Assembly: GCF_008124715.1 (NCBI RefSeq)
Contig: NZ_VNHO01000025.1
Coordinates: 1 to 32,075, forward strand
Source: Thermosediminibacter litoriperuensis
GTDB lineage: Bacteria; Bacillota; Thermosediminibacteria; Thermosediminibacterales; Thermosediminibacteraceae
DNA: 32,075 nucleotides
Reading direction: 5' to 3'
A program made the translations under genes and the position numbers. The first letter of the stretch is position 1. Each line of letters starts with the position of its first letter. Positions 19,104-23,839 of the stretch are shown piece by piece. A model generated the notes under the pieces. That model saw only the letters and a program-made list of their open reading frames with translations. It did no database searches and was not told the origin of the DNA.

Positions 19104-20015
19104 ATGAAAGCGGCTGTCATAGATCTGGGGTCGAATTCCGTGAGACTTCTTGTAGCCGAAGTCGAGGGAGGAAGGGTAATGCCGGTATTCAAGGACCTGG
19201 TGACCACCCGCCTCGGCGAAGGCGTCGCCGAAACGGGCTTATTGAGCCCAGAATCCATGGAAAGCACCCTGACCGCCGTCCTCGAATTTCAAAAAGCAGC
19301 CCTGTTCGCCGGCTGCGAGAGGATAACGGCCTTTGCCACTAGTGCCGTGCGGGAAGCCGGAAACGGTCAGGAGTTTCTGAAATCGATTAAAGAGCGGGTG
19401 GGGATCGAGGTCCGGCTGCTTTCGGGCCAGGAAGAGGCCGAGCTCTCCTTCCTGGGGGCAAGGGAGGGCCTGGGACTCCAAGGGCAGGCCCTTGTCGTAG
19501 ATATAGGCGGAGGCAGCACCGAGCTTGCCCTCGGATCCGAAAAGGTCGAGATGAGCGTAAGCCTTCCCATGGGAGCCGTCAGGTGGACGCAGAGGTTTTT
19601 AAAATCTGATCCTCCACAGGCGGAGGAAATAACCGCCCTTCGGCATGAAGCCCGCAGCCTGCTTTCGAATTTCAAAGACCGCTTCGGAGGTATGAAAAGT
19701 CCCCAGGGCGTGACTGCCGTAGGGGTTGGAGGCACGCTCACATCCCTGGCGGCCGTATCCCTGGAGTTGAAGGAATACCACTGGTCAAAGGTGCACGGAT
19801 GCGTCCTGGGGCTTGACGCGATGGAAGCCATCACCGGAAAGCTTTGCCGCCTCGCGCCCCTGGAAAGAAAAAAGATCGCCGGCCTTGCCCCTGGCCGTGC
19901 GGACATCATAGCGGCGGGAGCCCTTATAGCTCTTGAGATAATGAAGTTTCTCGAGCTGGGGTCCATAATCGTGAGTGAATCTGACCTCATGGAGGGAATT
20001 TTGTTGACAAATTAA
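19104..20015 (+). CDS. ppx: Ppx/GppA family phosphatase
   Basis: A 303-residue enzyme of the sugar kinase/Hsp70/actin fold, either exopolyphosphatase or pppGpp 5'-phosphohydrolase. The phosphate-1 motif is VIDLGSNSVRLLV at the N terminus, phosphate-2 is VVDIGGGSTELAL near residue 135, and the adenosine-side motif VGVGGTLTSLAA is near residue 210. It has only the catalytic core, without the C-terminal HD-like extension of E. coli Ppx. GGGAGGTG precedes the ATG. Its last codons contain the -35 of the rpoB promoter. Substrate choice (polyphosphate or pppGpp) cannot be read from the sequence; a link between stringent signals and rpoBC is only suggestive. Confidence 0.9.
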   Translation: MKAAVIDLGSNSVRLLVAEVEGGRVMPVFKDLVTTRLGEGVAETGLLSPESMESTLTAVLEFQKAALFAGCERITAFATSAVREAGNGQEFLKSIKERVGIEVRLLSGQEEAELSFLGAREGLGLQGQALVVDIGGGSTELALGSEKVEMSVSLPMGAVRWTQRFLKSDPPQAEEITALRHEARSLLSNFKDRFGGMKSPQGVTAVGVGGTLTSLAAVSLELKEYHWSKVHGCVLGLDAMEAITGKLCRLAPLERKKIAGLAPGRADIIAAGALIALEIMKFLELGSIIVSESDLMEGILLTN

Positions 20016-20032
20016 CTTCCGTATGATATTAT
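20004..20032 (+). promoter_or_regulatory. Strong vegetative promoter of rpoBC
   Basis: Perfect TTGACA (20004-20009), a 17-base spacer ending in the extended -10 TGA, and TATTAT (20027-20032). The -35 overlaps the end of ppx. Transcription would start near 20039, giving a leader of about 170 bases that contains a terminator-like hairpin. Confidence 0.8.
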
Positions 20033-20138
20033 TATAAACTGCACGATTATGGACAAAGTTGGTCAAACTGCCTTACGCTGAATATAATAGACTGAAAATG
20101 GTAAATATTATATAGATGGAAAACTGTAACGGCAAAAA

Positions 20139-20187
20139 CCAAAAGCAGGTTTTTTGTTGGGGGCCTCGCTTTTGGCTATTTTTACTT
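20139..20187 (+). promoter_or_regulatory. Terminator-like hairpin (attenuator) in the rpoB leader
   Basis: CCAAAAGC (20139-20146) pairs with GCTTTTGG (20168-20175), extended inward by AGG / CCT (20147-20149 / 20164-20166). The stem is followed by CTATTTTTACTTTT. It lies about 100 bases after the rpoB promoter and some 23 bases before the start codon, with no promoter between. Every rpoBC transcript from the visible promoter must pass it, so it fits a transcription attenuator. Confidence 0.6.
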
Positions 20188-20209
20188 TTATAAAGGGGTG
20201 AAGGAAAGG

Positions 20210-23839
<3,630 letters not shown>

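Follow-up and report, generated by a model that had tools for sequence, protein, structure and literature searches.

The mechanisms that set the amount of RNA polymerase (RNAP) are incompletely understood, according to the available part of PMC4670729, and this old open question about bacteria has mostly been studied in E. coli. In the excerpts available of PMC4670729 and PMC1242208, a terminator-like structure in the E. coli rpoBC leader, the rplL-rpoB attenuator, is described as uncoupling the RNAP genes from the genes upstream of them. A conserved element was also predicted in a cyanobacterial rpoBC leader (cluster 245 of a 2005 screen), and the available part of that report set it aside as no novel type of ncRNA (PMC1242208). 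In B. subtilis, as excerpts of PMC12288461 and PMC8060035 state, NusG pauses RNAP at a TTNTTT motif that spans positions −11 to −6 relative to the RNA end, an N and a T in NusG being the pause residues; the RNA end lies 11–12 nt from the hairpin at pauses and 7–9 nt from it at terminators, and the stem base is weak and the U-tract interrupted in terminators that depend on NusG and NusA. Known already are, in short, rpoBC attenuation in E. coli, its prediction in cyanobacteria and Nus-dependent pausing in B. subtilis.

The locus described here lies in a window of 32,075 nt, the whole stretch of DNA that was analyzed, from the 2.34-Mb genome of the thermophile Thermosediminibacter litoriperuensis. 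Like E. coli, it has a terminator-like structure in the rpoBC leader, but the E. coli attenuator sits after rplL within one operon, whereas the Thermosediminibacter hairpin follows its own promoter and unrelated upstream genes, and its stem is conserved over many families (a comparison by description). The hairpin is not located in an rplL-rpoB intergenic region here, where ppx/gppA precedes rpoB; some relatives do have rplL in that place. The cyanobacterial element belongs to another phylum and is likewise likened by description. With the NusG-type sites of B. subtilis (trp leader, ktrD, and yetJ), as far as the available text describes them, the hairpin shares an adjoining T-motif in the non-template strand, a predicted pause end at the 11–12-nt spacing, a weak A-U or interrupted U-tract, and the NusG residues N81/T82. 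In that text, those sites have a motif common to many genes, and no common stem sequence is mentioned, whereas the stem of the rpoB leader is private and fixed; the NusG likeness is one that we infer by analogy. Ribosomal-protein leaders and Rfam cis-regulatory RNAs also place a conserved, structured leader before a gene for gene expression. Unlike Rfam cis-regulatory leaders, the element is a single hairpin with no conserved folding beyond it, and Rfam 15 contained no family that matched the window at gathering score and gave no convincing weak matches in the leader or in 20 related loci. In relation to all these known kinds, the unexplained feature is the fixed sequence of the stem. No description of the hairpin was found in searches of open-licence PMC papers, and a term look-up found no mention of rpoB in PMC7247131, PMC8040213, PMC8632094, and PMC2965389.

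The genes upstream of the leader are arranged in the order spoIID, yabP, yabQ, divIC, an S1-domain gene, and ppx/gppA, and the operon reads rpoB-rpoC-L7Ae-rpsL-rpsG-fusA-tuf, where rpoC, rpsG, fusA, and tuf were assigned from size and order only. The nusG gene of Thermosediminibacter is apart from rpoBC, on another contig, and ppx/gppA takes its place before rpoB; in a relative (G250), nusG is found 3 kb upstream of rpoB. The hairpin and the promoter remain with rpoB in Thermosediminibacter despite the distant nusG. The coordinates of the features are collected in the table.

Table. Features of the rpoB leader and flanking genes (positions in the window).
Feature	Position	Strand	Remarks
ppx/gppA	19104-20015		Last gene before rpoB; 3' end overlaps P1
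Promoter P1 of rpoBC	20004-20032	+	TTGACA (20004-20009)-17-TATTAT (20027-20032); 11/12 match
Initially transcribed region, TGCAYGATTAT...	20040-20066	+	Conserved; predicted transcription start ~20040
Mid-leader motif, AAAATGGTAAATATTATATAGAT	20089-20117	+	Counterpart of GGAGATAGTATAATAGAT in sister family
Conserved rpoB-leader hairpin	20139-20175	+	5' arm 20139-20149, loop 20150-20163, 3' arm 20164-20175
T-rich tail, CTATTTTTACTTTTAT	20176-20191	+	U-rich but interrupted; identity 1.00 in 9 family members
CTATTT, NusG-type YTNTTT motif	20176-20181	+	Predicted pause end 20186; predicted termination window 20182-20184
Shine-Dalgarno region of rpoB, AAGGGGT	20193-20199	+	Direct reading
rpoB (RNAP beta subunit)	20210-23839	+	ATG at 20210; first gene of operon

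An initial annotation of this DNA had proposed that a hairpin and a U-rich run come some 100 bases after a near-consensus promoter, and that no other promoter intervenes before the rpoB start. The promoter scan agreed with the first point, the −10 element of P1 being of the extended type with TGn in front, and P1 was present in the rpoB leaders of the relatives. A Gibbs search of these leaders returned the extended −10 together with the start region as the top motif (information 12.8 vs 7.5–7.9 in shuffled leaders). As to further promoters, the claim held from 20185 to rpoB, where the scan found no forward promoter-like site, but between P1 and the hairpin there was a second promoter-like site, TGGTCA-17-TATAAT (20060–20088, 10/12). 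Since relatives do not conserve its −10, this match is probably due to chance, and we rejected it as a second promoter. Every transcript from P1 must pass the hairpin, as had been proposed, and the leader RNA predicted from the sequence (~20040 to 20182–20186) is about 143–147 nt long, close to the 140 bases expected in the annotation.

Within the leader, the region 20040–20066 had an identity of 0.87 among nine family members vs 0.54 at the fourfold-degenerate sites of rpoB. The first transcribed bases after the −10 (TGCA, TGCC, or TGGCA) are kept in the rpoB leaders of many families; they may have a role in start-site choice or, in some families, in 5' pairing with a TTGCCAT sequence before the hairpin. 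The purine-rich mid-leader motif, with an identity of 0.75 in the family and nearly invariant in the sister family, is GGAAAGAATAGACAGATAAGG-like elsewhere and recurs upstream of the hairpin. It is loosely −10-like, and the Gibbs search chiefly recovered P1 instead. The segments 20067–20088 and 20118–20134 are poorly kept (0.54–0.60 in the family), and the entire leader (20040–20197) folded no better than chance (z = −0.61).

The hairpin itself is formed by CCAAAAGC-AGG in the 5' arm and CCT-C-GCTTTTGG in the 3' arm, giving 11 Watson-Crick pairs and one bulged C (20167), to which the apex adds G-U pairs. In its 3' arm, the source copy departs by one base (CCTCGC) from its own family, and this accounts for the bulged C. 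The minimum free energy of 20133–20191 was −18.2 kcal/mol, compared with −10.5 ± 2.4 kcal/mol for the shuffled sequences (z = −3.18), 1 of 200 shuffles being equally good, and the probability of the hairpin in the whole ensemble was ~0.98. The hairpin and U-rich run of the initial annotation were thus recovered at the expected distance from P1, with the reservation that the U-run is interrupted.

An ordinary intrinsic terminator that is switched by a competing fold or a ligand, as in a riboswitch-like attenuator, would agree with the stability of the hairpin, its A-rich 5' flank, the six U among the nine nucleotides after it, and the length of the leader. The alternative fold that the annotation had offered as one possible basis of conditional termination was, however, not borne out: the best duplexes that the 3' arm and tail could form with upstream leader sequence were at chance level in 21/21 relatives, where 32 to 198 of 200 shuffles did equally well. 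The lack of a competing fold among these relatives speaks against such a switch, as do the poorly kept parts of the leader and the fixed stem sequence, which is unlike that of ordinary terminators, and we consider this explanation unlikely. A putative antiterminator duplex of 13–14 bp, noticed in some family members, failed the shuffle control.

To describe the conservation of the element, we searched every one of the 26 class genomes and compared 26 rpoB leaders from 25 of them; one genome contributed two rpoB copies, and one was without an identified rpoB start. By eye, the CCAAAAG...CTTTTGG hairpin or a near variant of it was present in 22 of the 26 leaders. Among nine family members, the identity was 0.98 and 0.96 in the arms, 0.62 in the loop, and 0.54 in the stretch just before the hairpin, and it was 1.00 in the tail and the start of the ribosome site, 20192–20199 being invariant in 9/9. 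Because the arms and tail are near-identical while the fourfold-degenerate sites of rpoB are at 0.54, the hairpin and tail are under strong selection.

The hairpin was lost or replaced at 4 of the 26 class loci (L008, L035, L036, and L037), which belong to two genera of the sister family, and these four leaders retain the promoter, the start region, and the mid-leader motif. In one of the genomes without the hairpin (G301), the residues of NusG are those seen in the hairpin carriers. In view of these losses, the element is not indispensable. The two genera that lack the hairpin and keep the promoter and 5' leader offer a natural comparison for hairpin function. G301 and G302, of a genus that lost the hairpin, each contain an additional, divergent member of the NusG family that scores ~91 bits and so falls short of the nusG cut-off; G250, a hairpin carrier, has a weaker second NusG-family match. 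Another genome, G309, contained two rpoB matches (L041 and L047, 76% and 67% identical to the query); the hairpin of the latter has diverged, and this locus represents either a second copy or contamination.

We then compared 74 distinct hairpins (79 before the removal of duplicates) out of 145 leaders, 40 of which had been picked because a covariance model matched them. Hairpins were included when they had at least 17/20 matches to the arm consensus, with L002, L155, L028, and L126 anchored by hand and L172 re-anchored, and copies below this score, for example those in sister family f2, were left out. The stem base AAGCGAGG/CCUUGCUUU was nearly invariant. In the 3' arm, CCTTGCTTT, each position had the same base in 72–74 of the 74 copies, and variation was found in the 5' arm. 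The choice of rows by arm match favors invariance, not pairing. The nine rows of the source's own family, in which a one-base deletion shifts the register, were omitted from the pairing count, leaving 65 distinct copies in which 520/520 base-pair cells paired. All of the 20 changes in the 5' arm were compatible with pairing, and the 3' arm had 4 changes. Most arm changes were A-to-G opposite U, which preserve the pair in the sense RNA but would disrupt it in an antisense RNA. As they pair only in RNA transcribed toward rpoB, it is the sense transcript that is constrained. When the 3' partner was slid by 1–3 columns, pairing fell from 92.8% to 39–69%. The classical covariation score was weak, since the columns hardly vary, and was reached by 94 of 500 shuffles of a 30-row alignment. 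The argument for pairing, made from the alignment, rests on compatible changes and sliding controls, not on many double changes.

The distribution of the element was examined with sixty further leaders, nearly all from separate families and chosen by rpoB position alone. Many distant leaders carried AAGCGAGG-loop-CCTTGCTTTT. Among 105 leaders, 35 had at least 17/20 arm matches and 23 at least 18/20, whereas among 2,100 shuffled leaders, 17/20 was reached by 2 and 18/20 by none. With a covariance model built from 30 rows, we searched 299 whole genomes, a sample of the phylum, and compared the matches with the rpoB positions. The source hairpin, with 44.1 bits, was the sole match at E ≤ 0.05 in its own genome. 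At 40 bits or more, 39 of 42 matches were located directly upstream of rpoB on the same strand, as were 47 of 51 at 38 bits or more. At 36 bits or more, 55 of 69 were linked to rpoB, 13 were elsewhere, and 1 was at the site before rpoB but on the other strand. Chance matches rise below 36 bits, and at 32 bits there were 77 linked matches, 4 on the opposite strand, 34 elsewhere, and 3 unassigned. These counts refer to 121 matches down to 31.7 bits, three of which had no rpoB position and were not counted as linked. When the genomes from which the model was made were removed from the linked matches, 24 of 27 at ≥40 bits and 30 of 34 at ≥38 bits remained linked, and the model reached 10 families without any training row. 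Among the matches listed, at least 78 genomes in at least 32 families carry the hairpin before rpoB.

An exact DNA pattern (the CCAAAAG...CTTTTGG form with the ribosome site) was run on 84,980 species and found 71 places, of which 63 lie 49–83 nt before the rpoB start, three were truncated at the edge of the available sequence yet read alike, and five were unrelated. The carriers include Thermovorax, Fervidicola, Tepidanaerobacter, Thermoanaerobacter, Caldanaerobacter, and Thermoanaerobacterium, as well as Tissierella, Schnuerera, Anaerosalibacter, Sporosalibacterium, and Lutispora. It is conceivable that the hairpin, which follows an upstream gene, is only the terminator of the preceding operon (ppx or rplL) and has been carried along. 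However, P1 stands between the upstream gene and the hairpin, direct reading of the Thermoanaerobacterium-like loci shows a separate terminator for rplL ahead of the rpoB promoter, and the hairpin accompanies rpoB where the upstream genes differ, so that this explanation is hardly credible. The hairpin is a conserved, rpoB-specific leader element.

The tail was analyzed without the pattern rows, since the exact pattern had fixed part of it. Across families, the sequence reads GCTTTT, two bases, and then Y, T, any base, T, T, T at a fixed phase. With one copy per family, 14 of 37 families had T at each of the four motif positions (mean 1.8, maximum 7 in 2,000 shuffles); the four positions were picked after the columns had been seen, and they coincide with the published motif. 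The strict TTNTTT was found in 14 of the 74 hairpins (shuffled mean 6.7, maximum 12), a modest enrichment. The source motif has one mismatch to TTNTTT, with C at −11, and the Thermoanaerobacter form is TAATTT. If the motif sets the RNA end, the distance from 20175 to the predicted end at 20186 is 11 nt, a spacing of the pause type. NusG reads RNTPGVTGFVG in 10/10 class sequences (the source genome and nine class members), and we take the N and T of this segment to be the counterparts of N81/T82 of B. subtilis. Judged from the sequence, a strong terminator agrees less well with the predicted 11-nt spacing and the interrupted U-tract than does a Nus-stimulated pause or a weak terminator that depends on Nus factors.

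Our preferred explanation, to which we give a probability of about one half, is that the rpoBC leader contains a pause-attenuator responsive to NusA and NusG. The hairpin would form while RNAP leaves the leader, and NusA and NusG would hold RNAP at the hairpin and T-motif. A fraction of the complexes would be released at 20182–20184 by weak, Nus-dependent attenuation, the remainder proceeding into rpoBC. The production of beta and beta' would in this way be metered, and it would respond to the condition of the elongation machinery (NusA, NusG, RNAP, and NTP). We infer pausing or termination, the action of NusA and NusG, and the feedback on RNAP. NusG leaves the fixed stem sequence unexplained. 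A more far-reaching version, which we put forward tentatively, is that the sequence-fixed hairpin is read directly by RNAP with NusA and NusG at the exit channel, and that it serves as an autogenous gauge of beta and beta' and is a widespread element of Bacillota.

Since a terminator or NusG pause needs no fixed stem sequence, the best rival is a hairpin bound in a sequence-specific manner by a protein (RNAP, NusA, an L7Ae-like protein, or another), which would mediate autogenous repression or antitermination and make the T-motif secondary. The stem sequence, nearly fixed over 32–37 families and thus beyond what a terminator or NusG pause would need, points in this direction, as do the one G-U pair kept in most copies and the L7Ae-family gene within the operon. 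No known binding site and no Rfam family was matched, however, and the variable distance from the hairpin to rpoB (14–224 nt, median 44) argues against occlusion of ribosome binding; we regard protein binding as possible, though doubtful. It is rather improbable that the hairpin is a processing or stability element that is cut or that shields the 5' end of the rpoB mRNA. Leader hairpins often act so, and the title of one paper, the part of it available, has the E. coli rplJL-rpoBC RNA both processed and attenuated, but the fixed T-motif and the pause-type spacing are not predicted by such a role. A further candidate is a boxA for NusB-S10 that is sequestered in the 3' arm and controls antitermination. 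The boxA consensus is UGCUCUUU; UUGCUUUU resembles it, and a few copies read TTGCTCTT. The rRNA leaders of three class relatives (those of the source genome are cut by contig ends) have ATCCTTGAAAACT or GGTCTTTGAAAACT, to which neither the arm nor the tail corresponds, making this explanation very improbable.

A near letter-for-letter hairpin before rpoB in at least 32 families provides a concrete cis-acting site for Bacillota, and GCGAGG/CCUUGC together with YTNTTT is a sequence whose binding partner can be sought. If the NusA/NusG explanation is true, the genes of RNAP itself would be regulated by a Nus-dependent pause of deep conservation. In three leaders (L153, L156, and L168), a different hairpin is followed by TTTTTCTTTTTGTCTT or a near form, which also contains NusG-type motifs. 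Judged from the rpoB start, we take these leaders to be Bacilli-like, and their hairpin with TTTTTCTTTTTGTCTT may be the Bacilli counterpart of the element.
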